64,000 nucleotides of DNA from a virus. Shown in pieces: positions 7,735 to 49,010 of the stretch (positions within the stretch are counted from its first letter, which is position 1; the number at the start of each line of letters is the position of its first letter). The position numbers and the translations under genes are program-made. The stretch spans positions 1 through 64,000 of the IMG/VR virus record IMGVR_UViG_3300005577_000028; one strand, given 5' to 3'. The notes below the pieces were generated by a model. The model searched no databases, was not told where the DNA came from, and saw only the letters and a program-made list of their open reading frames with translations.

Positions 7735-8035
7735 AGGAACATCGCGTTGCAGCGATAGGGCAAGCTGATCGTGCCCTGGTTTGCGCCTGACCAAATTCGG
7801 CGTTCGCGCTCGTAGTGGTCGGCCGTAGTTGACATGTGCCTGGCATGTCTGCGCCTAAGCACTCTGTGCATAGATTAGAGGCCCGCCGGGTTGGTTGCAG
7901 ATCCTTGCCGGCGGCCACCTACACATGGTTGCGTGTGACGGATGCCGATGTTCGCAAGACTCGGAGCTGAACCTACAGTTACGACATCCGATCACACGCA
8001 CCAACCATTTCCCAACCACAGCCTAGGAGCTGAAG
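7735..8035 (+). other. Gene-free leader with dyad and candidate promoter
   Basis: No coding region of quality is seen. At 7829-7851 TTGACA begins a dyad GACATG-7-CATGTC that could be a -35 element overlapped by an operator. At 7855-7883 the string CTAAGC...CATAGATTAGAGGCC closely matches one at 45793-45819. The rest, including GCCGCCGG-type inverted repeats near 7890-7915, has no clear function. Confidence 0.35.
7869..7880 (+). promoter_or_regulatory. CATAGATTAGAG element, candidate promoter
   Basis: This sequence recurs as CATAGACTAGAG at 45805-45816, each time preceded by CTAAGC and followed by (G/A)CC. Both are in gaps shortly before a rightward gene. CATAGA(T/C)T could serve as a -10 region. 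Inference from two copies only. Confidence 0.35.
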
Positions 8036-8188
8036 ATGAAGAAGACCCTGTTCTCCGCCGCACTGCTGATCGCGGCCGCCCTCGGTGGCGTCGCCATGGC
8101 CCAGGATTCGACGCCGGACGGCTGCATGCCCGGCAACGGCGGCTCGGCCCCCATCTGCACCCCGGGCACGGGCCCCGGCGGCAAGTAA
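8036..8188 (+). CDS. Small secreted peptide with Sec signal
   Basis: This 50-residue product has a textbook signal peptide: MKKT, a hydrophobic core LFSAALLIAAALGG, then VAMA|QD as signal peptidase I site. The predicted mature peptide is about 28 residues, rich in Gly, Pro and Thr with two Cys residues. The gene has a good Shine-Dalgarno (TAGGAGCTGAAG). No family is recognised. A mature peptide this small could act in the periplasm on an envelope target, but that is speculation. Confidence 0.65.
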   Translation: MKKTLFSAALLIAAALGGVAMAQDSTPDGCMPGNGGSAPICTPGTGPGGK

Positions 8189-8315
8189 AGCCAGCGCAAC
8201 GATCAACGCAGCGAGGGCGAAAGAAGAGTCACCCGCAGTTGCAGTGAGAAGTCCCGCCTCCCCAGGGACGACGTAGTGTCCGAGCAATCGGGCGTGTGTC
8301 AAACCATAGGGAAGA
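8189..8315 (+). other. Gene-free spacer before tRNA-like gene
   Basis: No gene is seen. A GTCCC...GGGAC hairpin lies near 8252-8270. Otherwise nothing recognisable. Confidence 0.3.
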
Positions 8316-8390
8316 CCCCACGTAGCTCAGGTGGTAGAGGATGCCCCGTAAAACGGGTTCGGTGGTGAGGATCGTGCCCTCACCGTGGGG
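8316..8390 (+). tRNA. tRNA-like gene, anticodon uncertain
   Basis: A 7-bp acceptor CCCCACG/CGTGGGG, D arm GCTC-AGGTGGTA-GAGG (first pair mismatched) and T arm TGAGG-ATCGTGC-CCTCA are present. The anticodon arm is poor: CCC GTAAAAC GGG gives AAA as the middle triplet with only three or four good pairs. The T loop lacks the usual TTC. No CCA is encoded. It may be a divergent or decayed tRNA upstream of the tmRNA. Confidence 0.45.
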
Positions 8391-8510
8391 TTCTAGTTTC
8401 ATGAACACGGAGCTTCGGCTTCATGTGTATGGTCGTGTGTCGGCACTCGCCGACGAGAGTCTGAAGCTGACGGATGTTGGACGGGGGTTCGATTCCCCCC
8501 GGCTCCACCA

Positions 8511-8542
8511 CTAGCGCCTGCGTACATGCGGGTGCTAGTGAT
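8511..8542 (+). other. Excised intervening segment of the permuted tmRNA
   Basis: This segment lies between the encoded CCA of the acceptor piece and the GGGGCCG start of the coding piece. It forms a hairpin by CTAGCGCC with GGTGCTAG-type pairing. In permuted tmRNA genes this loop is removed, by RNase P on the coding-piece side and by tRNA 3' processing on the CCA side. Confidence 0.75.
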
Positions 8543-8648
8543 GGGGCCGACCAGGTTTCGACAGCGTTGCTGATGTGGAGGACGACGACTCGCGCGTATG
8601 GCCTAGTCTAGCTCAGCGTTACAGAGCCGACAGGGTACAAAACTAACT

Positions 8649-8687
8649 GCCAACGACGAGCAATTCGCTCAGGCCCTCGCGGCCTAA
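8649..8687 (+). other. tmRNA tag reading frame (ANDEQFAQALAA, stop)
   Basis: The resume codon is GCC at 8649. Twelve codons read ANDEQFAQALAA and end at TAA 8685-8687. ANDE at the start and ALAA at the end are the hallmark of proteolysis tags read by ClpXP/ClpAP with SspB. The extra Gln-Ala makes it two residues longer than the usual betaproteobacterial ten-residue tags. Confidence 0.9.
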
Positions 8688-8866
8688 GCGCAGAACAGCT
8701 GCGGGTTCTACCTAGGCAACTAGGTGTGTACGCAGCCGGGCCGGACACAGCGGATAACCTCTGCTGTGCGTCTGAGTAAGCCGGGGCCGCAAGGTCCAGG
8801 TTAGGGACGGTGAGCTTCGGCTCTCTGCTCCCGAACGTCCGGCCCACCCCTAACAACGAGGCATCA

Positions 8867-9262
8867 ATGACTGAACTTAAGACCGCACCGGTGGACACGG
8901 CCTACGTCGAGATGCAGGCCTACGTCGCCAAGTTGGAAGCCGCCGGCGTCAAGAGCGACAACGGTTGGTACCCGATCATGACCGCTCCGTGGGAGACCGA
9001 GATCCTGATCGGCCGCTGGCAGACGATCGGCGACAAGGAGCTGCGGTTCATCACCTGCAAGTCGAGCCAGGAGCACGCTCCGGGCAACGAGTTCGAGGGC
9101 GAGGCCGCCTACGACTACTGGGCGGTCGACGAGGACTTCGACGGCGTGGTTGACTCGGCGATGCCGGATGTCTGGCGCCCCCTCTTTCCCCAGCCCGCGT
9201 TCATCAACACCTACGAAGACCAGCTGGCTGAACAGGCCTCGGCTGCCGAGGGAGAAGGCTGA
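8867..9262 (+). CDS. DUF551-like hypothetical protein
   Basis: This 131-residue product has a helical N-terminus. A central segment GWYPIMTAPWETEILIGRW then resembles the 'W.PI.TAP.D..ILL' core of DUF551-type proteins common in phages. After it come DYWAVDEDFDG and a short C-terminal helix. Function unknown. It begins shortly after the tmRNA coding piece; ACAACGAGGC upstream provides the Shine-Dalgarno. Confidence 0.6.
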   Translation: MTELKTAPVDTAYVEMQAYVAKLEAAGVKSDNGWYPIMTAPWETEILIGRWQTIGDKELRFITCKSSQEHAPGNEFEGEAAYDYWAVDEDFDGVVDSAMPDVWRPLFPQPAFINTYEDQLAEQASAAEGEG

Positions 9263-9510
9263 TGGGAGTCGTCGTGTTTCCTGGCCACGAAGGTTCGGCG
9301 CTCGAAGCTCTGGCAAAGGCGAAGACCGCGGTTGACGAGATCGGCCCGGATGCACGGATCTTCATCTTCGTCCGCGATCCGAAGAAGCAGGCCACGCGCT
9401 CTCTGAGTTCGGAGTTCAACACCATCGATCTCGCAGTCGTGACCGCCTACGTCAACGCATATTGCTCGGATCACATGATGCGAGCGCAGGGTGAGGACGG
9501 CGACGATTAG
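9262..9510 (+). CDS. Hypothetical protein
   Basis: This 82-residue product starts at an ATG overlapping the upstream stop (TGATG). It looks like a small alpha/beta domain (ARIFIFVRDPKK) ending in acidic residues. The family is not recognised. Confidence 0.6.
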   Translation: MGVVVFPGHEGSALEALAKAKTAVDEIGPDARIFIFVRDPKKQATRSLSSEFNTIDLAVVTAYVNAYCSDHMMRAQGEDGDD

Positions 9511-9517
9511 TACAACG

Positions 9518-9548
9518 AGCCCCGGGTCGAGCAGTCGATGCCGGGGCT
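9518..9548 (+). terminator. GC-rich hairpin, possible attenuator
   Basis: AGCCCCGG (9518-9525) pairs perfectly with CCGGGGCT (9541-9548) around a 15-base loop, followed by ACCCATTTCTGG. There is no long T-run, so it may be a partial terminator between two genes. Confidence 0.4.
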
Positions 9549-9567
9549 ACCCATTTCTGGAGCACAC

Positions 9568-9996
9568 ATGATCGAGCACCACACCAAAGACGGTGAAGTA
9601 CCACCGGTTCGTTTCCCTCGGCGCATGCTGCAGCTGTGGAGCCTGGGCCGTGCTCAGCGTCGACCCGACTGGCTCGCGCGCTTTCGACTCCGTCCTGACC
9701 ACGAGCAGATCGATCTCGAATGGGGTCTCTTCCAGGTCTTCCACGATCTCGGCATCACCAACCTGCAGACCGCGAAGGAATGGGCGCTCCTGCAGTACAA
9801 CAGGCCCGAGTGCTTCGATGCATTCCCGATCATGGGCACTCGTGACATGTGCTGGCAGCTGAGCTGGTACGTCGAGACGTTGGAGGGTCGCTACCCCGAG
9901 GACATCAGCGCCCAGTACGCGCCGAACTTCTACCTGAACTCCAGGTACGGGACCGACATCTACTCCTACATCTTCCATCCGCAAGCGAGGACATGA
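9568..9996 (+). CDS. Hypothetical protein
   Basis: This 142-residue product is rich in aromatic and Arg residues, with segments such as WLARFRLRPDHEQIDLEWGLFQVF. No catalytic motif is apparent. The ATG follows TGGAG by 7 bases. The stop overlaps the next ATG. Confidence 0.6.
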   Translation: MIEHHTKDGEVPPVRFPRRMLQLWSLGRAQRRPDWLARFRLRPDHEQIDLEWGLFQVFHDLGITNLQTAKEWALLQYNRPECFDAFPIMGTRDMCWQLSWYVETLEGRYPEDISAQYAPNFYLNSRYGTDIYSYIFHPQART

Positions 9997-10469
9997 TGGC
10001 ACACGAGTATCACATCGACTCGCTGTTCGGCGCGCACCTGGACGCGGCGGTCATCGCGACCTTGGGCAAGCCCTGGCGCATTGAAGTCTTCTGCGTCCGC
10101 TACCCGCACCCGGAGCGCCACATGACTGCGCGAGTCGTCAATGAGCACGGTCGCGTCATCAACTTCAATCACGACAACCGATTCCATCGTGACTGGCTGC
10201 ACGCCGGTTATCTCATGGAGACCGGGAAGATCAGCATCTCCTGGCCTCAAGATCCGGTCAAGGGTCGACCATGTGCCTGGGGTACGCCCGAGTCCGAGAC
10301 GCGGTCATTCGGTCGGACCATGCCGGAGGCGATCACGCGTGCGTACCTGAAGCAGCACACGAAGTCCCCGTTCATCGAGCTCGACCAGAAACTCGAGCTC
10401 TACATACCCTACCAAGATGACCTGCTGGCGCAGCTGGCGGGTGTCACCGAAGTGAAGAAGGACTACTGA
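9993..10469 (+). CDS. Hypothetical protein
   Basis: This 158-residue alpha/beta-looking protein contains RIEVFCVRYPHPERHMTARVVNEHG. The family is not recognised. It starts at ATGATG overlapping the previous stop. One base separates it from the Tat-signal protein that follows, so these genes are probably one operon. Confidence 0.6.
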   Translation: MMAHEYHIDSLFGAHLDAAVIATLGKPWRIEVFCVRYPHPERHMTARVVNEHGRVINFNHDNRFHRDWLHAGYLMETGKISISWPQDPVKGRPCAWGTPESETRSFGRTMPEAITRAYLKQHTKSPFIELDQKLELYIPYQDDLLAQLAGVTEVKKDY

Positions 10470-10470
10470 C

Positions 10471-10950
10471 ATGAATCCTACCCGCCGTGGTTTCCTGGGT
10501 GCGATGCTGGCTGCGGCCGCCGCACCTGCAATCGTCAAGGCCGACTCGCTGATGAAGGTCGTGGTGCCCAAGCACGTGGCTGATGGGCACTTCATCACCA
10601 TGTACGGCTACAAGATCGGCAACGGTCCCACTACGTTCAAGTCGGATGTGGTCGATGCGTACACGCGTGGCGATTGCCTGCAGCAGCAGTACGTGGATGT
10701 CATTGAGCGCGTCATGCTCGATGAAGACCGGGGGCCACTCATCTTGGGTGAACTCGGCTACATGGAGGGATTCACGGTCGTCGTCAGCGAGATCGACAAG
10801 TCGAATGTCGTCTTCGACCGCGGCGTCACCCAGCCCATGTTCCTGGGTGCGAAGCGTGGGCCCAAGCCAGCACGTCGGCTCGGACGCAATCAGATCGAGT
10901 CGCTGTTCGACAAGGCACGCGACCTCGCCTATCTCAAGATCAGGGGCTGA
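10471..10950 (+). CDS. Tat-signal protein, paralogue A
   Basis: This 159-residue product opens with a twin-arginine signal: TRRGFLG, hydrophobic stretch AMLAAAAAPAIV, then KADSLM as a likely cleavage region. The mature domain (about 135 residues) has no known motif apart from a segment VTQPMFLG near residue 123. The product at 11252-11674 has an almost identical N-terminus and a similar 'PM.LG' segment, so the two are paralogues. The Tat system exports folded proteins, which suggests the mature domain folds, perhaps with a cofactor, before export. Confidence 0.65.
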   Translation: MNPTRRGFLGAMLAAAAAPAIVKADSLMKVVVPKHVADGHFITMYGYKIGNGPTTFKSDVVDAYTRGDCLQQQYVDVIERVMLDEDRGPLILGELGYMEGFTVVVSEIDKSNVVFDRGVTQPMFLGAKRGPKPARRLGRNQIESLFDKARDLAYLKIRG

Positions 10951-10952
10951 CC

Positions 10953-11252
10953 ATGCAGTATCCGCGAATCGTGATCGACGGCACGGACTGCCAGACACCG
11001 AGTGGCGATCTCAAGTCGGGCTGGATCATCACCTACGAGGTGACGCTCGACGCTCAGGGTCGTGAGCAGCGACGAGAGAAGAAGCGTCAATGGGCGCAGG
11101 ACCCGAAGCCCGTTGTTTTCGACAACGGTATGACCTCGCAACAACATGCGGCGGCTGTCGCACGTGGCGAGAATCCCGGACCCCCGGTCAAGACCGGTAT
11201 CTTCTATCCGCACAAGATGCTGGAGCTGATGCCAACTGAAGGAGTGCACTGA
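10953..11252 (+). CDS. Hypothetical protein
   Basis: This 99-residue product has a beta-rich start (YPRIVIDGTDC) followed by a basic region (REQRREKKRQWAQ). It lies between two Tat-signal paralogues with only a 2-base gap and a 1-base overlap. The family is not recognised. Confidence 0.6.
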   Translation: MQYPRIVIDGTDCQTPSGDLKSGWIITYEVTLDAQGREQRREKKRQWAQDPKPVVFDNGMTSQQHAAAVARGENPGPPVKTGIFYPHKMLELMPTEGVH

Positions 11253-11674
11253 TGTCAACACGTCGTGGTTTCCTGGGCGCTATGCTCGCAGCAGCCGTGG
11301 CGCCCGCCGTCGTCAGAGCCGAGTCGCTGATGAAGCTGCCGTCGGCTCCGAAGATCCTGCGTACCTACTGGGACGGCTCGAACTGGCGTTGCGAGCCGAT
11401 GACTGTCGAGTCGCAGATCACTGCCGATCCCTGGTACACGCCGCCCGAGCGCATCATTCACGCACGGCCCTACGTCTCGGGTGACGAGATCAAGACGACA
11501 TCGGGCATCGACGAATTCGTCGACCGCATGGTCGAACAGCTCTCACGCGAGACTGGCATCTCCAAGCCCATGCTTCTCGGCCAGTCGTACAGCGATGGTC
11601 TGTACGCGGCATCGCGGCAGCCCTCGAAGTTGCCGTTACTCATCGAGCGCGGGTTCATCAAGCGTCGAGCATGA
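11252..11674 (+). CDS. Tat-signal protein, paralogue B
   Basis: This 140-residue product begins STRRGFLGAMLAAAVAP and then VVRAESLMK, nearly the same signal as paralogue A. The mature part carries GISKPMLLG near residue 108, aligned with VTQPMFLG in A. The rest has diverged. The start overlaps the preceding stop. As a pair they suggest duplication of a small exported phage protein; their target in the periplasm is unknown. Confidence 0.65.
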   Translation: MSTRRGFLGAMLAAAVAPAVVRAESLMKLPSAPKILRTYWDGSNWRCEPMTVESQITADPWYTPPERIIHARPYVSGDEIKTTSGIDEFVDRMVEQLSRETGISKPMLLGQSYSDGLYAASRQPSKLPLLIERGFIKRRA

Positions 11675-11675
11675 C

Positions 11676-11843
11676 ATGGCACCGACCCATGTCTCAACAG
11701 ATTGCAACGGCATGATCGCAGTCACGGTCATGCCGGAAGCAGAGGAGTCTGCAGCGGAGGGTAGCGAGCAGACCGAAGAGGAGCGCGAGCAAGACTGTAA
11801 AGAGTCTCGTCCGCGTGACAATCAACTCAACCAAAGCCGTTAG
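11676..11843 (+). CDS. Possible small acidic protein
   Basis: This 55-residue frame is very rich in Glu (EAEESAAEGSEQTEEEREQ). It starts one base after the upstream stop and ends 3 bases before the next gene. An ACTGTAAAGA element lies inside it, so it could instead be a leader region. Coding status is uncertain. Confidence 0.4.
   Translation: MAPTHVSTDCNGMIAVTVMPEAEESAAEGSEQTEEEREQDCKESRPRDNQLNQSR
11794..11803 (+). promoter_or_regulatory. Candidate promoter element ACTGTAAAGA
   Basis: This is an exact copy of the decamer, 44 bases before the start of the glycosyltransferase-like gene. The distance is similar to that at 4751. Promoter role inferred from recurrence. Confidence 0.4.
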
Positions 11844-11846
11844 CAT

Positions 11847-12632
11847 ATGACCATCACTGCCAAAGAGATCGGAGAGAACTACCCGCTCTCCATCGACGAC
11901 GCCAAGGAGTACGCCGGCCGCACCATCGCGAGCCGCGCCTTCTACCACACTGTCTTCTCCGCCGTCAAGAACAAGCTGCCGCTGTCCGTCGTCCGCATGG
12001 GTGATGGCGAGCGTCACCTCTTCATCGACTGCGCGACCGCCGCCGCCAACAAGGTGTCCGGCCTCCCGGTCGATTCGTTCGACACCGCGTGGCGCACGCG
12101 CATGGGCATCGAGGGCATGACCTTCGAGCAGCTCAACGATTCGATGCGTGCGTCGATCGCTCTCACCAACTACTTCGGTCCGAACGTCAACGGCCTGATG
12201 CAGCCCAACTACAGCGTCTACCCGTGGTACAAGATCCACGGCAAGGGTCAGCCGCTGGTCGACAACTTCTTCGTCAACGAATGGGACCTGGAACATCGCA
12301 CCGCGCTCCTGAAGGCGGCCGGCAATGTCCTGGTGCTGCACGCGAACCCGGTGACTGCCATCACGTTCGCGCGACGTGCGCGGGCCTACCTCAACGTCGG
12401 CATCCGCCACGTGAGCCTCAAGTCCTGGCGTGATGCCGACACGGCCCTTGCGGAGTGCGCGAAGTGGGACTACCCGCTGGTGCTCGTCAGCGCCGGCCCG
12501 GCTTCCAAGTGGATCATCCCTGGGATCGCCCGACAAGGCAAGGTCGCGCTCGACATCGGCAACGCCATGGACCACTGGCTGCTGCTCGAGCTCTACAAGG
12601 CCGACCCGACGAAGCTGGACGCCGTCAAGTGA
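11847..12632 (+). CDS. GT-D-type (DUF1792-like) glycosyltransferase
   Basis: This 261-residue product has SVVRMGDGE near residue 50, matching the 'R.GDGE' nucleotide-sugar site of GT-D/DUF1792 transferases. The C-terminal PLVLVSAGPASKW...GKVALDIGNAMDHW matches the 'GP.AK....G..ALDIGH.D' end of that family. These enzymes move a sugar from UDP-sugar donors onto glycoproteins or glycans. The substrate here is unknown: virion protein, DNA or host surface are all possible. Two further glycosyltransferase-like genes lie at 46825-49010. Confidence 0.65.
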   Translation: MTITAKEIGENYPLSIDDAKEYAGRTIASRAFYHTVFSAVKNKLPLSVVRMGDGERHLFIDCATAAANKVSGLPVDSFDTAWRTRMGIEGMTFEQLNDSMRASIALTNYFGPNVNGLMQPNYSVYPWYKIHGKGQPLVDNFFVNEWDLEHRTALLKAAGNVLVLHANPVTAITFARRARAYLNVGIRHVSLKSWRDADTALAECAKWDYPLVLVSAGPASKWIIPGIARQGKVALDIGNAMDHWLLLELYKADPTKLDAVK

Positions 12633-13054
12633 CCGACGTGCAGCGGTTGCCCTACCGAGAGCCGCCACCCAGGCTGACCGCGACCGCACGGTCACAGAGC
12701 CTGGAGCAGCACTACCAAGGGTTCCTGGCAGCAAACCTGATGAGCGAGGGCGGCAGGTACGACCTGTATCCTTTGGTCGAGGACGAGACCGTTGCCGACA
12801 TCGTTCTCTACGTGGGTCTTCTGCCATCGATCACCTTCCGGCATCTCAAGAAGTGCGCGAAACGAGTGCGACGTCTGACCAAAGGTGTGGTCACGCACAC
12901 GCAGGCTGTGGAGTTGCTGGCGAAGGCCCTAGGCTACAGGACCTACGCATCTCTCTGCGCTGCATGCCCGGAGAAGACCTGGGCTCGATCCATTCGCACC
13001 GGTCCACCCGTGCAGTTCTCGATGGACCTCATCACAGGAAAGAAGACCACGTGA
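12629..13054 (+). CDS. Hypothetical protein with 'ELLAKALGYRTYASL' motif
   Basis: This 141-residue product starts at GTG overlapping the previous stop. The segment THTQAVELLAKALGYRTYASLCA near residues 95-117 is a short module seen at the ends of many phage and proteobacterial proteins, including some annotated glyoxalase-related. Its role is unclear. The N-terminal part is not recognised. Confidence 0.6.
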   Translation: MTDVQRLPYREPPPRLTATARSQSLEQHYQGFLAANLMSEGGRYDLYPLVEDETVADIVLYVGLLPSITFRHLKKCAKRVRRLTKGVVTHTQAVELLAKALGYRTYASLCAACPEKTWARSIRTGPPVQFSMDLITGKKTT

Positions 13055-13293
13055 GCGACTACAAGCAACCGATGCAGCACGGCCCGGGCACTGGCCCCAT
13101 GTACGTCAATGACATGCCTCTGAAGCTGACACCGCGGCTGAAGCGCTGCAGTCGATGCAACACCGATCGGGAGCCACAAGGTGGCTGCCAGGTCACGGTC
13201 GATAAGTGGGTGTGCGGCAAGTGCTGGCGTCCCAGCCTTCACACCCAGCGGCTCAAGAGCAAGTCCAAGGCGGTCACGGCCCCGGCGGCCTGA
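13051..13293 (+). CDS. Small zinc-ribbon protein
   Basis: This 80-residue product has two CxxC knuckles, CSRCNTD at about residue 34 and CGKC at about residue 55. They are spaced for one structural zinc and followed by a basic tail (RLKSKSKAV). It probably binds nucleic acid or a protein partner. The start is GTG in a GTGA overlap. Confidence 0.6.
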   Translation: MSDYKQPMQHGPGTGPMYVNDMPLKLTPRLKRCSRCNTDREPQGGCQVTVDKWVCGKCWRPSLHTQRLKSKSKAVTAPAA

Positions 13294-13304
13294 CCAAATC
13301 CGAA

Positions 13305-13314
13305 ACTGTAAAGA
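13305..13314 (+). promoter_or_regulatory. Candidate promoter element ACTGTAAAGA
   Basis: Exact copy of the decamer, 68 bases before the ATG at 13382. An AAGTGC...GCACTT inverted repeat follows at about 13319-13351. Confidence 0.45.
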
Positions 13315-13381
13315 AGACAAGTGCACGTTTGCAAACACGCATAGCACTTCTTCACCACACAACGCAAGAGGTTACACCAAC

Positions 13382-14467
13382 ATGACGACGATCGACGCAG
13401 CGACCAAGACCATCCTGGTGCCTGGCTCCGTCTGGACCCGCGAGACCAAGAACGGCAACAAGGACGTCACGGTCCTGTTCATCACGAACCAGGGCCTGCC
13501 GCCCGAGACGCTGGCCAAGTGCCCGCAGCAGGTGGTCTTCCTCAACGACGAGGGCGCCGTCCTGTCGATGAAGCCCGAGCAGTTCGTGGCCAAGCGCAAC
13601 TTCTCGACGATGAACCCCGAAGCCGAGGTGATCCTCCGGCACATCGTCGAGGGCTTCGACGACGAGGACGAAGAAGGCGACGACGAGATCGACCTGGACT
13701 CGATCCAGCTGCCCGAGTCGTCCGAAGGCGATGCCGACGTGAGCCTGGAAACCGAGCCGGTCGCCGAGAACTTCGAGACCACCGGCAACCTCCTGGCCGT
13801 GCAGGCGCAGCAGCAGGCGCAGATGAACAACACGTCGCCGGTGCTGCAGCTGCAGGACGGCCTGAACGCCGCGCTGGTGCACCTGCTGACGAGCCGCTTC
13901 GTCTCCTACTCCGAGTCCGTGGCGCCGAACGGCACCGGCGACACGCTGCACACGATGCGCTTCGCCCTGAGCCCGGAACTCGACCTCGACATGCTCAACA
14001 AGGCGTTCGGCCTCGAAGGTCCGATCACCAAGTTCACGATCAACAGCGCTGTCGCGCCGACGACGGTGGACATCGACGGCTTCTTCCAGGTCTGGCTCGA
14101 AGTCGTGGCGCCGATGGGCAAGTTCCCGTCGCAGTCCTACGGTCTGGTCCAGCTGACGAGCCGCGGCGACTTCCGTGAACAGCAGGTCGTGCAGCAGAAG
14201 CCGCAGCCCGCTGCCGCACCGGTGGCCGCCGATCCGATGGAGACCCCGAGCGGCCTGTACCAGGCGCCGGAAGTCGAAGCCGAGACGGCCGACGAGCAGG
14301 CGGTGGCCAAGGCGGCGCCGGCTCACAGCTCGTTCATCAGCGACGCGACCATCGTGGGCCAGAAGCCGACGCCGCCGGCCGCCGAGCCGACGATCAACCT
14401 GGCTGCGATCCCGACCGAGACGCCTGCGGCGCCGCAGATGCCGGGTCTCAACATCGTGAACGCGTGA
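13382..14467 (+). CDS. Hypothetical acidic protein, 361 aa
   Basis: The first 100 residues form an SH3-like beta region (ILVPGSVWTRETKNGNKDVTVLFITNQG) and a helix. An acidic stretch (EDEEGDDEIDLD) and a second folded part (about residues 155-270) with FALSPELDLDMLNKAFGLEG come next. A Pro/Ala/Glu-rich tail closes the protein. No family is recognised. It has its own candidate promoter and a strong terminator after it, so it may be a single transcription unit that is highly expressed. Confidence 0.65.
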   Translation: MTTIDAATKTILVPGSVWTRETKNGNKDVTVLFITNQGLPPETLAKCPQQVVFLNDEGAVLSMKPEQFVAKRNFSTMNPEAEVILRHIVEGFDDEDEEGDDEIDLDSIQLPESSEGDADVSLETEPVAENFETTGNLLAVQAQQQAQMNNTSPVLQLQDGLNAALVHLLTSRFVSYSESVAPNGTGDTLHTMRFALSPELDLDMLNKAFGLEGPITKFTINSAVAPTTVDIDGFFQVWLEVVAPMGKFPSQSYGLVQLTSRGDFREQQVVQQKPQPAAAPVAADPMETPSGLYQAPEVEAETADEQAVAKAAPAHSSFISDATIVGQKPTPPAAEPTINLAAIPTETPAAPQMPGLNIVNA

Positions 14468-14531
14468 GCTGATCCGATCAACTGGCAACTGCGAACCTAC
14501 GACTAGAACGACAACGATTTGTTCCTGAACC

Positions 14532-14566
14532 GAAGGGGCCCCACTCGGGGCCCCTTCTGCCTTTTC
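14532..14566 (+). terminator. Strong rho-independent terminator
   Basis: GAAGGGGCCCC (14532-14542) and GGGGCCCCTTC (14547-14557) form an 11-bp stem with loop ACTC, followed by TGCCTTTTCC. It separates the acidic protein from the metallopeptidase gene. Confidence 0.8.
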
Positions 14567-14590
14567 CGGGCCAAAATTCGAGGTGAAAAC

Positions 14591-15652
14591 GTGAAAAATC
14601 AGGCATCTGTGACCGTCTCTGAAGGAGACTACGTAATCGGCAAAATCAGGACCGCGGAGTCGCATGTCCTGGTTTTTGGCAAGGTCGATGAACTGGCCAA
14701 GGGCTATGTCGTCGGCACGGTCGAGAAGAACCGCCACATCAAGCAGCTCCGCAAGGGCTTCGAGGTCGTAAACAAGGACATCGTCCTGAACCTGGGGCCG
14801 AAGCCCTACGGCGGCACGATCCTGAAGTTCGACACGAGCCACATCTACACGGGCCGGAAGATCACCCACGACTTCTTCGGCGCCATCCACTTCTTCTACG
14901 CGATCCAGACCGAGGTCGGCAAGACGCTGATGAAAGCGTTCGACAAAGCCGCCGAGATCCTGCGCAAGGCAGGGCTCCCCGAACCCGTGAACACGGTGTG
15001 GGAGGTCAACCCGAAGGAAGCGAAGCCGACGAAGTACGCCGGCTACTACAAGCACAGTCGCACGCCGGCCAAGAAGCCGCACACCCTGGCGATCAAGCCG
15101 GAGGCCGTCCCCATGACGGTCAGCGACTACCTGTACGTGATCCTCCACGAGTACGCGCACTACCTCCACTACAACCACCTGCGGAATCCCAAGGTCAACG
15201 CCGCCTGGATCAAGCTCTTCAACACCTCGATCAAGCCGCAGACCATCGACCGCGAGGCCTCGAAGAAGCTGCTCAAGCAGCTGATCGACGGCGAGGAGCG
15301 TCCTTCCGACCTCAAGGGCCAGCTCGACGAGGCGGACCGCAACGCCTGGAACTGGATCATGCGGACCATCAAGCAGGATCACGCAGTCGGTATCAAGGAA
15401 CTCGACTTCCTGTTCGAGGCCGAGCAGAAGCCCGAGATCGAAGCCCTGTGGCCGCGCCGCACGCTCATGAAGAAGGAGCTGGCGCCCGTCATCAGCGAGT
15501 ACGCGACGACGAACTACCGCGAGACCTGGGCCGAGGCCTTCAGCTTCCACTTCACGAAGCGCAAGCTGCCCGCCGTCGTCACGACCCTGCTCGAGAAGAC
15601 GTTGCGCAAGGTCGAGGCCCTGGAAGAAGCGGCCGAGGAGTCCGAGGAATGA
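14591..15652 (+). CDS. Zinc metallopeptidase-like protein
   Basis: This 353-residue product has ILHEYAHYLHY near residue 181, an HExxH motif with both zinc-binding His residues and the catalytic Glu. TNYRETWAEAFSFHF near residue 310 may supply the third ligand, as in gluzincin-like enzymes. The N-terminal 90 residues are a separate beta-rich domain. The start is GTG after AGGTG; upstream ATGs would read through the terminator. The first codons are AT-richer (AAA, AAT, TTT) than the rest. Possible roles are virion protein processing or host protein cleavage. Confidence 0.7.
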   Translation: MKNQASVTVSEGDYVIGKIRTAESHVLVFGKVDELAKGYVVGTVEKNRHIKQLRKGFEVVNKDIVLNLGPKPYGGTILKFDTSHIYTGRKITHDFFGAIHFFYAIQTEVGKTLMKAFDKAAEILRKAGLPEPVNTVWEVNPKEAKPTKYAGYYKHSRTPAKKPHTLAIKPEAVPMTVSDYLYVILHEYAHYLHYNHLRNPKVNAAWIKLFNTSIKPQTIDREASKKLLKQLIDGEERPSDLKGQLDEADRNAWNWIMRTIKQDHAVGIKELDFLFEAEQKPEIEALWPRRTLMKKELAPVISEYATTNYRETWAEAFSFHFTKRKLPAVVTTLLEKTLRKVEALEEAAEESEE

Positions 15653-16008
15653 GCGCGCAGCGTCCGTTCGGCTACCTGTACGAGAACGTCGGCGGCGCCG
15701 TTGTCTTCCATCGGGAGGGTAGCTGCAACAGGGACGTTCTGAATGCGGACATGGAAGCCGCCGCCATGTACCCGAAGGGTCATGTGCTGACGCCTCTGTT
15801 CACGCAACCAGTGGTCACACCAGAAGAAGAAGAGCTGCTGCTCGCCACTGGTCGTCTCTGGAACGACTTCTGCCAGCTGCCCGACAGCGCGGCATCTGAC
15901 ACCGACGACTTCTACCGAGCTGTCCACGAACTGCAGCGCATCATCGCACTTCGTGGCATGCGACGTGCCGTGCCTGCCCTCTTCACCCAGCACAAGGATC
16001 GGACATGA
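15649..16008 (+). CDS. Hypothetical protein
   Basis: This 119-residue product starts in an ATGA overlap with the metallopeptidase stop. Its N-terminus (RPFGYLYENVGGAVVFHREG) and later TPLFTQP resemble small phage proteins of the 'PLF..P' type whose function is unknown. It is coupled to the HAD phosphatase downstream by a 4-base overlap. Confidence 0.6.
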   Translation: MSAQRPFGYLYENVGGAVVFHREGSCNRDVLNADMEAAAMYPKGHVLTPLFTQPVVTPEEEELLLATGRLWNDFCQLPDSAASDTDDFYRAVHELQRIIALRGMRRAVPALFTQHKDRT

Positions 16009-16436
16009 AGACCATCATCTATGACATCGACGGCTGCTGCATCGACTCGACGTTCCGCCACGAGCACGTGCAGGTCGACTTCAAGCGCTACCTGGAGCTG
16101 CACCCGACCGACAAGCCGATCATGCAAGGCGTGCTCGTCTACACGCTGCTGCTCGAGCTCCAGGACTTCCGGCACGTCTTCATCACCGGCCGCGGCGAGG
16201 AAGAGCGTGAGTCCACGACCGCGATCCTCGAGCGCCTCTTCCACGGCAAGACCTTCGAGCTGCTGATGCGGCCGGCCGATGATCGACGGCCTGACGTCGA
16301 GATCAAGGGCGAGCTCATGCAGCAGAACGGCATCTGGCCCAAGGACGTGTTCCTCGCCTTCGATGATCGTCCGGTCATGGTCGAGTTCTACCGGAGCCTC
16401 GGCATCGTCGCCTACCAAACCGCGGAGGGTTACTGA
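16005..16436 (+). CDS. HAD-family phosphatase, Pnkp-3'-phosphatase-like
   Basis: This 143-residue product opens IIYDIDGCCIDS (HAD motif I, DxD). Next come FITGRGEEERESTTAILERL (motif II region), LLMRPADDRRPD, a Lys in EIKGELM and FAFDDRP-type motif IV (LAFDDRPVMV). This order and spacing match the phosphatase half of T4 polynucleotide kinase and related stand-alone phage HAD proteins. It likely removes 3' phosphates from RNA or DNA ends. No kinase domain is fused, and no RNA ligase is seen nearby. Confidence 0.75.
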   Translation: MKTIIYDIDGCCIDSTFRHEHVQVDFKRYLELHPTDKPIMQGVLVYTLLLELQDFRHVFITGRGEEERESTTAILERLFHGKTFELLMRPADDRRPDVEIKGELMQQNGIWPKDVFLAFDDRPVMVEFYRSLGIVAYQTAEGY

Positions 16437-16437
16437 C

Positions 16438-16665
16438 ATGAAGCTGCCTCAAGACCCGGCTCGCAGGTTCCTGCTGGCCGCACTCGTCGCCTACATGCTC
16501 TTCGTCGTTGGTTGGCTGTGCTTCTACGCCGGCCCTGACCTCAAGCTGCCGCCGCACCTCTTCATGTGGCAAGTGATCGGCCTCATCGTCGTCCTCGTCA
16601 TCTACGTGCTGCTGATCTGGCGCGAGGTCGTGGCGGATCGCAAGGAGCGCGAGGGCGATGCCTGA
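16438..16665 (+). CDS. Small two-helix membrane protein
   Basis: This 75-residue product has transmembrane segments at about residues 10-30 and 43-63, with a basic/acidic tail (REVVADRKEREGDA). It starts one base after the HAD gene stop. Family unrecognised; role unknown. Confidence 0.6.
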   Translation: MKLPQDPARRFLLAALVAYMLFVVGWLCFYAGPDLKLPPHLFMWQVIGLIVVLVIYVLLIWREVVADRKEREGDA

Positions 16666-16706
16666 CGTGACCCTCATTTTGATCCTCCACTGAAGGAGAG
16701 TGACCG

Positions 16707-17126
16707 ATGATGAAACTCGACAAGCTGGTTCGTCTCAGCGAACGGATGCGCCGGCTCAACAGCCGCCTGGTCAAGGTCGTCGGCTACAAGACCGGCACCG
16801 GCAAGGACGGCATCCCGACCGCGGTGGCGCGCACCTACACGCCCCTCGAGTACAGCCTCGGCGGCCGCCGCATCATGCGCGCCAAGGACAAGAACAAGTA
16901 CACGTCGTCGATCAAGTTTCTCGACCGCGGACTCCACGTCCGTGTCTCGTGCTCGTGTCCCGACTACATGTACCGGTGGGAGTACGCCAACAACCTGGTC
17001 GGTGCCTCGCACATCATCTACGGCAACGGTGAGGCGCCGGACGAGACCAACCCGCAGTACAGGCCCGGTCTATGCAAGCACCTGCTTGCGCTCCGGACCT
17101 TGGTGAAGGAGCAGCACGGGATATGA
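16707..17126 (+). CDS. SWIM-type zinc-finger protein
   Basis: This 139-residue product has VSCSCPDYMYRWEY near residue 92 and PGLCKHLLALRTL near residue 122. Together they give the CxCx(n)CxH pattern of a SWIM zinc finger, a module that binds DNA or protein. The rest is basic. It starts at ATGATG after GGAGAG and ends overlapping the sigma-factor gene by 4 bases, so the two are co-translated and may act together in late transcription (inference). Confidence 0.7.
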   Translation: MMKLDKLVRLSERMRRLNSRLVKVVGYKTGTGKDGIPTAVARTYTPLEYSLGGRRIMRAKDKNKYTSSIKFLDRGLHVRVSCSCPDYMYRWEYANNLVGASHIIYGNGEAPDETNPQYRPGLCKHLLALRTLVKEQHGI

Positions 17127-18073
17127 CGAGCAACTACACCCACAGCGCTACGTTCGCGTCGCTGAAGGGCATCAAGGAAGAGCTGACCGAGAACTACACG
17201 ACGTTCCAGCTGCTGACGACCCTCGACTACTTCATCGAGAACGCGATCGATCCGATCATCAGCGCCCACCCGGACCTGACCGACGTGTACTTCTCCAAGG
17301 TCATCGCCTACCAGTTCGACAACCCGAACGTGAAGTGCAGCCGCAATGAGAAGGCGTCGCTGCCGCAACTTCTGTTCAACGCGGTGACGACGCAGGGACG
17401 ACGCAAGCGGGAGTTCCAGCGCAAGATGCTGCTCAACCGCGGGCTGCTCTTCGGACTCGTCTCGGTCTTCCTCAAGACTGTAAATACGTATCGGAAGTTG
17501 CACAGCCCGCACGTGAAGTTGCGTCGGGCTCAGCGACTGGTACTTCGTCAGCTTGCCGAGGAGCGAACGGGCTCGTCCCACATCTTCCCTGCGATCCTGC
17601 AGGTGGAGTTCTGGATTCAGCACGCCTATCACTTCAAGGAACTGATCGTCCAGAAGTACACGCGTCTGGCGTCGAACCAGGCGCGCAAGACGTACATGGA
17701 CGTCAACTGCGACAAGAGCCTGGACGACATCATCCAGGTGTACATGGTCTTCCTCGCCAAAGCGATCGACCGATGCGACAGTCGGCAGGGCGTGCTGACG
17801 GAGTACATCAAGTACTGGTTCTACTCGGCGAAGTCCGAGATCATGAAGGAGGTAGCCAAGGACGGGCTCAACACGAGTTACGATCAGCTGCTCGAATCGG
17901 GCATCGACTCGCAGTCGGTTGATCCCGACACCCAGTTCGAGGCGGCGCAGCACATCTGTGCGACCGCCAAGGGACTCGATCCAACGGGAGCGTATCGGTT
18001 TGCGCTCCACATCCCCGAGCACTACAGCAACGCGGATCTCCGCAAGCTGCAACTTTTCACCACAACCAACTGA
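17123..18073 (+). CDS. T4 gp55-like late sigma factor
   Basis: This 316-residue product contains a sigma-70 region 2. IVQKYTRLASNQARK (about residue 173) corresponds to region 2.1. LDDIIQVYMVFLAKAIDRCDSRQGVLTEYIKYWFYSAKSEI (about 200-240, aromatic-rich) corresponds to regions 2.2-2.4. No clear regions 3 and 4 follow, as in T4 gp55, which recognises only a -10-like late promoter. It sits just upstream of the SSB gene. ACTGTAAA(G/T)A elements in the window are natural candidate targets. An ACTGTAAATA copy lies inside this gene at 17477. Confidence 0.72.
   Translation: MTSNYTHSATFASLKGIKEELTENYTTFQLLTTLDYFIENAIDPIISAHPDLTDVYFSKVIAYQFDNPNVKCSRNEKASLPQLLFNAVTTQGRRKREFQRKMLLNRGLLFGLVSVFLKTVNTYRKLHSPHVKLRRAQRLVLRQLAEERTGSSHIFPAILQVEFWIQHAYHFKELIVQKYTRLASNQARKTYMDVNCDKSLDDIIQVYMVFLAKAIDRCDSRQGVLTEYIKYWFYSAKSEIMKEVAKDGLNTSYDQLLESGIDSQSVDPDTQFEAAQHICATAKGLDPTGAYRFALHIPEHYSNADLRKLQLFTTTN
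17477..17486 (+). promoter_or_regulatory. ACTGTAAATA element inside the sigma gene
   Basis: This copy ends in ATA, so it matches six of eight bases of the T4 late core TATAAATA. It could drive SSB and recombinase genes downstream, or be chance within coding sequence. Confidence 0.3.
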
Positions 18074-46824: not shown

Positions 46825-47901
46825 ATGAAGCGCATCGGCATTACGTGTGCCCTTGAATCCAACGGCGGCATGGACCTCTTCTCGAACAGCCTTGCACAGA
46901 CTGCGGTCTTCCTGCTCCGGCTCTTCAAGAAGGCGAGGCATGCCGCCGTCCTGCTTTCGGGTCACGACAGTCCGGCACCGGACCTAAAGCTCAGCTCCTT
47001 CGGCATCGAGATCCAGGACGTCACGAACGCGTGGCCCGACCTCGATGTCGTGATCGTCTGCAACCGCAAGCTCTCGCTGACCGAGATCGCGACCTACAAG
47101 GCGAAGGGGACGAAGATCGTGCTGCACATCGGCGGCTCGCTGGCGCTCGACACGATGGCGTCGCTCATCAACGGCGCGCCGGGCTTCGGCTACGAGGATG
47201 CGAAGCTCTACGACCAGGTGTGGATGACGGTCGCGCAGGCCAAGTCGTGCCGCTCGTGGTGCGAGAACGTCTACGGCTGTCCGGTCGTGGTCGTGCCTCC
47301 GGTGTGGGAGCCGCTCTTCATCCCGAAGAGCTACGGCTTCCTCGAAGGCGGACCGCAGCCGCATCCCGAGGACGACATCCGTGGCTGGCAGATCGTGGTC
47401 AACGAGCCGCCTCACACGGTGAGCCGCTCGGTGCACTGGCCGCTCATGGCCATCCACCACGCGATGCTGGCGATGCCGAAGATGAATCGCGTGGTCGGCA
47501 TCTACGTCAACCACGCGGCACAGCTCAGCTCCAACGTCCCGTTCGTGCACTTCCTGTCGAAGCTCGGCTTCCGACCCATGCCGCCGGGTGCCGATCTCTT
47601 CCTCATGGAGTCGACCGTCGGATTGCAGCTCGTGGGCAACCGCGCCGACATGATCGTGACCCACGACATCGAGGACGGTCTGGACTACTCGTGGTTCGAG
47701 GCTCTGTACGGTGGCTACCCGCTGATCCACTGCTCCGAGTTCCTAGGTCAAGGCTACCGTTACCATCGCTTCGACATGGGCGGTGCCGGCCTCCAGATCC
47801 GCAAGGCGATCGAGAGCCACGACCCGAAGCAGACGAAGGCTGACTTCCGGGACATGATGCCCCAGCTCCAGAACCAACAGGCCTACGAGGTGCTCCTGTG
47901 A
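46825..47901 (+). CDS. DUF2827 glycosyltransferase-like protein, copy 1
   Basis: This 358-residue product opens MKRIGITCALESNGG and has VTHDIEDGLDYSWFEALYGGYPLIHCSEF near residue 275. The latter matches the DUF2827 signature (SH..ENGLNY.Y.DALYGGYPLVHNS). DUF2827 proteins are common in Burkholderia-like bacteria and look like GT-B glycosyltransferases. The copy differs at the signature (THDIEDG for SH..ENG). Possible roles are virion, DNA or host-surface glycosylation. Confidence 0.7.
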   Translation: MKRIGITCALESNGGMDLFSNSLAQTAVFLLRLFKKARHAAVLLSGHDSPAPDLKLSSFGIEIQDVTNAWPDLDVVIVCNRKLSLTEIATYKAKGTKIVLHIGGSLALDTMASLINGAPGFGYEDAKLYDQVWMTVAQAKSCRSWCENVYGCPVVVVPPVWEPLFIPKSYGFLEGGPQPHPEDDIRGWQIVVNEPPHTVSRSVHWPLMAIHHAMLAMPKMNRVVGIYVNHAAQLSSNVPFVHFLSKLGFRPMPPGADLFLMESTVGLQLVGNRADMIVTHDIEDGLDYSWFEALYGGYPLIHCSEFLGQGYRYHRFDMGGAGLQIRKAIESHDPKQTKADFRDMMPQLQNQQAYEVLL

Positions 47902-49010
47902 CCGACAAGAACAACAAGCCGAAGCCCATCCGCATCGGCATCACGATCCCCGACAACGCGAAGCTCGCGCTCGAGCAGGCGCTGTGGTCCAACGGCCTGG
48001 TCCAGAATGCGGTCTTCCTCTACCGCACGTTCGAGAAGCTGCCGGGCGTCAAGTGCTTCCTGCTCGGGTCCTTCCCGCTGGCCAAGGCCCTGAAGTGCGA
48101 CCACACGGTCAAGGGCCCGGGCTACCTCGATGTCGTGATCGAGATGTCGGCGAAGATCGACCTGAAGTCGCGTCAAGCCTTCCAGGCACGCGGCGGCAAG
48201 GTCGTGCACTACGTGCCGGGCAACACGATGTTCCTCAACATGGACAACGCGGTCGGCGCGCCTGTGAACGCGGACGTGCCGCACGGCGACTACGACGCGG
48301 TGTGGCTGCTGCCGCACGTCAGTCCATCGAACTTCGCGTACTACGCGACGATGTACAAGTGCGGCATGGAAGTCGTGCCCATGGTCTGGAGTCCGGAGTT
48401 CATGCTCCCTGCCGCGAACAAGGAACAGGAGTGGCCTTCGTACCAGCCGCAGAAGCGCAAGGTCGTCGGCGTCTTCGAGCCCTCGTTCTCGACCGTGAAG
48501 ACGCCGCATGTCCCGATCCTGATCGCTGACCGCTGCAACAGGCTCAATCCGGAGCAGGGCCCGATCATCGATGAAGTGCGGCTCTTCGGTACCGCAGGCC
48601 GTGTCGAAAACGACCCCTGTTTCCGGTCTTTCACTTCCGTCCTGGGAGTCGAAAACAGGCTCAATTTCACCGAGCGAATTCAGGCGAAAACAGCGTTTTC
48701 CGGCCTCGCCTGTGTCCTGAGTCACACTGTCGAAAATGGCCTGAATTACAACTGGTGGGAGGCACTTTACGCAGGCTACCCGCTGGTGCACAACAGCGAC
48801 ATCGTGCAGGCCGGCTACAGGTACAAGAGCTGGAACATCGACGACGGCGCGGACATGCTGCACAACGTGCTGCGCAAGCACGATGACCCGCAGATCAGCG
48901 TCGCCTACAACTACGCTGCGAAGAACTGGCTGGCGAGGCTGGCTCCTGAAGTTGCAGCCAAGGACTACCTGGTGGCGCTGCAACGCCTCCTGGGAAGGAA
49001 ACTCGGATGA
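47898..49010 (+). CDS. DUF2827 glycosyltransferase-like protein, copy 2
   Basis: This 370-residue product is a paralogue of copy 1 and overlaps its stop by 4 bases. It has VLSHTVENGLNYNWWEALYAGYPLVHNSD near residue 273, the better-conserved signature. A patch of about 160 bases (48597-48760) inside the gene uses AT-richer codons (GAA AAC, TTT, AAA) not used elsewhere in it. The tandem pair suggests duplication with split sugar or acceptor choice. Confidence 0.72.
   Translation: MTDKNNKPKPIRIGITIPDNAKLALEQALWSNGLVQNAVFLYRTFEKLPGVKCFLLGSFPLAKALKCDHTVKGPGYLDVVIEMSAKIDLKSRQAFQARGGKVVHYVPGNTMFLNMDNAVGAPVNADVPHGDYDAVWLLPHVSPSNFAYYATMYKCGMEVVPMVWSPEFMLPAANKEQEWPSYQPQKRKVVGVFEPSFSTVKTPHVPILIADRCNRLNPEQGPIIDEVRLFGTAGRVENDPCFRSFTSVLGVENRLNFTERIQAKTAFSGLACVLSHTVENGLNYNWWEALYAGYPLVHNSDIVQAGYRYKSWNIDDGADMLHNVLRKHDDPQISVAYNYAAKNWLARLAPEVAAKDYLVALQRLLGRKLG

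Follow-up and report, generated by a model that had tools for sequence, protein, structure and literature searches.

Two-piece tmRNAs are already known from phages: a survey of a phage database published in 2022 counted 53 unique two-piece tmRNAs (PMC9004378), and 79 unique bacteriophage tmRNA sequences are listed in PMC11915505. The locus described here is thus a further case of a known kind, and a structurally conserved one. It lies in a 64,000-nucleotide stretch of DNA, the whole of which we analyzed and refer to as the window, corresponding to bases 1-64000 of a viral record that is 91,402 bases long, classed as linear and possibly a fragment. Like phage Melnitz and the other phages with two-piece tmRNA genes (PMC9004378), the window carries a complete permuted ssrA. 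The gene of Melnitz belongs to the alphaproteobacterial type and is accompanied by a glutamine riboswitch, whereas the window gene is best fitted by the beta model, and Rfam detects no riboswitch in the window. We put the probability that the locus is a functional, circularly permuted tmRNA (ssrA) gene carried by a tailed phage at roughly 0.9.

Identification and extent of the gene

A cmscan search of both strands of the 64-kb window places a match to the Rfam family RF04321 (tmRNA_permuted) at 8448-8687 on the plus strand; it scores 87.5 bits where the curated cut-off is 47, and its E-value of 2e-15 lies far outside what chance would give. RF04321 merges the alpha (RF01849), beta (RF01850) and cyanobacterial (RF01851) families. 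The locus shares with it the gene order, the tRNA-like domain, the TTCGAC block and the tag frame; among the older clade models RF01850 (beta_tmRNA) scores best, with 64.5 bits, under its own cut-off of 84, and fits the 3' domain at 8738-8845 poorly. The standard one-piece model RF00023 reaches only 37.1 bits in standard order, below its cut-off of 47. Independently of Rfam, ARAGORN calls a permuted tmRNA (tmRNA*) at 8418-8778 with the tag ANDEQFAQALAA. An earlier note had proposed a phage-encoded permuted tmRNA here from the letters alone, with a covariance-model search against permuted models as one check and the lack of any such match as one finding that would count against it; since a permuted model is matched, that objection falls away. 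The identification now draws on the RF04321 match, the ARAGORN call, the surrounding phage genes and compensatory changes relative to a second viral contig, IMGVR_UViG_3300005366_000008 (43 kb, hereafter L114), the one other viral contig found to encode the identical tag. Taken together, these indicate a real and probably functional phage-borne permuted tmRNA, with the following features:

8439..8454, plus strand: 5' hairpin of the acceptor piece (fold z -4.0); retained in L114, one pair having changed on both sides
8448..8687, plus strand: core of the permuted tmRNA, comprising the acceptor piece, the intervening sequence, the 5' part of the tRNA-like domain and the tag frame; RF04321 and ARAGORN
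8473..8478, plus strand: P2 proximal helix, acceptor-piece strand, partner 8563-8568; 6/6 pairs kept in L114, 3 of them with both-side changes
8483..8499, plus strand: T arm, loop TTCGATT; model match, one compensatory change in L114
8500..8510, plus strand: acceptor stem 3' strand CGGCTCC (8500-8506), A8507 and CCA (8508-8510); 7/7 pairs with 8543-8549
8511..8542, plus strand: intervening sequence of 32 nt, expected to be removed; inside a 14-bp hairpin 8509-8522/8527-8540 (fold z -6.2)
8543..8549, plus strand: acceptor stem 5' strand GGGGCCG, RNase P cut expected before 8543; two compensatory changes in L114
8563..8568, plus strand: P2 proximal helix, coding-piece strand; pairing kept in L114
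8591..8627, plus strand: probable pseudoknot 5' of the tag, CGC/GCG and GCTC/GAGC, read from the sequence; nearly invariant in L114
8649..8687, plus strand: frame encoding the tag ANDEQFAQALAA, followed by a TAA stop (ARAGORN); identical in L114
8692..8736, plus strand: pseudoknot 3' of the tag, AGAAC/GTTCT and GCTGCG/CGCAGC, inner hairpin 8710-8725; two compensatory changes in stem 2 in L114
8738..8845, plus strand: coding-piece 3' domain; closing helix GGGCCGGAC/GTCCGGCCC (8738-8746/8837-8845) with 9/9 pairs and two compensatory changes

The gene order is permuted, with the 3' tRNA-like part and its CCA, ending at 8510, upstream of the 5' acceptor strand at 8543. The third acceptor pair is G-U, the usual alanine identity pair, and the T arm, P2 and a tag frame with resume codon and stop are present as well, as in the permuted family. 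The coordinates given in the earlier note are exact and the hallmarks it names are present, from the CCA end at 8510, GGGGCCG at 8543-8549 and CGGCTCC to the T arm, the TTTCGAC block (8556-8562), the GAGTC/GACTC pairing, the pseudoknot and the tag frame. The GAGTC (8457-8461) and GACTC (8587-8591) elements could form a further pairing beside the P2 proximal helix. The 3' end, which the note had set at 8852, proves about right: similarity to L114 runs to 8857, and because the covarying closing helix 8738-8746/8837-8845 lies partly beyond the ARAGORN end at 8778, the conserved gene end is placed past it, at about 8845-8857. Within the 3' domain, a hairpin at 8746-8768 carries four compensatory changes in L114 (counted over 8747-8767), and is followed by a second hairpin (8804-8832) and a possible pseudoknot, TAACC/GGTTA.

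A tRNA-like element is found just upstream of the gene, at 8315-8391, with an acceptor-like stem ACCCCACG/CGTGGGGT, a tRNA-like D arm and an anticodon-like arm. It has no normal T loop, is called by neither ARAGORN nor Rfam, and is missing at that place in L114.

Structural conservation in a related viral contig

L114 is collinear with positions 8001-17464 of the window at a nucleotide identity of roughly 66-92%, and its permuted tmRNA occupies the same place in the same gene neighbourhood. The coding pieces are about 82% identical. The two genes differ in that the intervening sequence of L114 is about 120 nt long, compared with 32 nt in the window, and its CCA is not fully encoded (ACCT). The intervening sequences also differ in their letters, yet both form a hairpin beginning at the acceptor end, as expected of a removable spacer.

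Base pairs were checked helix by helix, as the alignment of the window with L114 misaligns the intervening sequences. In eight helices all 51 of 51 pairs are kept, 17 of them altered on both sides and 4 on one; the helices were chosen by eye from two sequences only, a choice that inflates the unshifted count of kept pairs. With the partners slid by 1-3 bases, 12-17 pairs are kept and 0-3 show both-side changes; these controls are slightly off for the P2 helix (L114 partner at about 1384), and the unshifted counts stand. Direct evidence that the structure was maintained comes from the both-side changes, which fall in the acceptor stem, T arm, P2, pseudoknot and 3' domain; the preservation of every pair, 17 of them by changes on both sides, means that the RNA evolved under structural constraint. 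The locus is a clear further example of a phage-borne two-piece tmRNA with conserved structure, and the diverged pair maps the helices of the RNA.

The comparison with L114 bears on two other accounts of the locus. A captured bacterial ssrA might survive as a functionless remnant, for instance of prophage integration: ssrA is a frequent integration site of phages and islands, and several phage matches consist only of a short ssrA 3' end beside an integrase or attR. The window gene, by contrast, has all its parts, and L114 is strongly diverged around the gene, yet every tested pair is kept, many by compensatory change. The 91-kb record yielded no tyrosine integrase, a result that speaks against a leftover from an integration site. 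With the covariation already weighing against it, a functionless remnant is in our estimate very improbable. We regard it as just as hard to credit that the RNA is a tmRNA-like decoy, binding host SmpB or ribosomes and inhibiting host rescue instead of rescuing. An RNA with only the tRNA-like domain, as in mycobacteriophage DS6A, does inhibit tmRNA in E. coli (PMC11915505, PMC4131195); unlike the DS6A RNA, the window gene retains a complete tag frame, stop included, as well as pseudoknots, and these are all conserved in L114.

The flanking sequence holds a block, 8111-8272, that is 92% identical to L114 and exceeds the tmRNA in conservation. Its part at 8189-8272 is non-coding, separates an ORF for a small secreted protein (8036-8188) from the tmRNA region, and may be a promoter or regulatory element.

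Predicted processing and role

For the working permuted tmRNA, two-piece processing, SmpB use, ribosome rescue and tagging during infection are consistent with the locus, and we infer them from known permuted tmRNAs. Host RNase P would cut the transcript before 8543, and trimming would produce the CCA end at 8510; with the hairpin between them lost, two pieces would remain, held together by the acceptor stem and P2. The RNA would then be charged by host alanyl-tRNA synthetase and delivered to stalled ribosomes by host SmpB and EF-Tu, and the tag, with its C-terminal ALAA, would direct the products to ClpXP-type proteases. Ribosomes could in this way be kept free while mRNAs break during infection. 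No SmpB gene was found in the 91,402-base record, so the protein would have to come from the host or from a part of the genome that the record lacks. Neither a sigma-70-like promoter for the tmRNA gene nor a terminator after it was found, hence the RNA is probably released by processing of a larger phage transcript.

A pattern search for ANDEQFAQALAA, admitting a TAA stop only, finds this tag in none of 84,980 bacterial and archaeal species genomes, and the resume-region pattern likewise has no match in them. We consider it unlikely that the phage-specific tag and the enlarged, covarying 3' domain (8738-8845) adapt the RNA to infection, as opposed to its being a copy of host tmRNA; if they do, tag and 3' domain could alter which protease or adaptor receives the tagged proteins.

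Permuted tmRNA genes in other phages

A pattern for the tRNA-like domain recovers 95 viral contigs in which the tmRNA is laid out in permuted order. Among the 80 of these that were listed, all 80 are called permuted by ARAGORN and 39 distinct tags occur, of which 34, like the tag of the window, end in (L/V/I/A/M)AA. The intervening-sequence length of the window gene, 32 nt, is also the commonest among the other viral permuted loci. Matches to RF04321 over the cut-off, of 88-137 bits, are present in the isolated phages PHB04, PaMx31, PA_L9, DLP6, JWDelta and CcrRogue, whose hosts belong to Bordetella, Pseudomonas, Stenotrophomonas, Achromobacter and Caulobacter. While these six resemble the window in matching the family, their tags differ from that of the window and no wider DNA similarity to it was found. 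In all six the tmRNA is unannotated at the match, and several isolated phages therefore carry permuted tmRNA genes that their records do not name. The PaMx31 record is entirely without annotation. A standard tmRNA, also unannotated, is matched in Rfam with 90 bits at 1520-2048 of Gordonia phage GodonK, overlapping an annotated tRNA-His.

Carrier phage and host

The contig with the tmRNA encodes structural and packaging proteins, with terminase, portal and baseplate of the jumbo-phage type. The phage genes of the window include a terminase (phrog_17415, E 7e-198), a portal (phrog_16240, E 4e-168), a baseplate wedge, a UvsX-like recombinase and a single-strand binding protein. The terminase is nearest to those of the jumbo phages BcepSauron and BcepSaruman (50%), followed by Motura (45%), which are phages of Burkholderia and Achromobacter, and the order of single-strand binding protein, recombinase and terminase is shared with Motura. 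These similarities suggest that the host is betaproteobacterial and that the full genome exceeds the record in length. The phages nearest by terminase, namely BcepSauron, Motura, NCTB, PaBG and RHph_I42, show no permuted or standard tmRNA match over the cut-off; weak matches in BcepSauron were rejected as tRNAs.

The suggestion of the earlier note that host ancestry can be read from the permuted gene holds only weakly. Matches to the beta model (RF01850) over its cut-off also occur in phages that infect Pseudomonas and Stenotrophomonas, hosts with a one-piece ssrA of their own, which makes the permuted form a poor host pointer. In Melnitz, too, the permuted tmRNA type differs from that of the host lineage (PMC9004378).

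No near-identical DNA is present in the phage collection, and a PmgG-like head protein used as bait retrieved nothing among the viral contigs. The protein encoded at 14519-15649 is found at 100% identity in a 15-kb viral contig (L115), and a near-identical phage is therefore present in another sample. Two adjoining DUF2827 (PF10933) genes lie at 46825-49010, apparently the result of a duplication.
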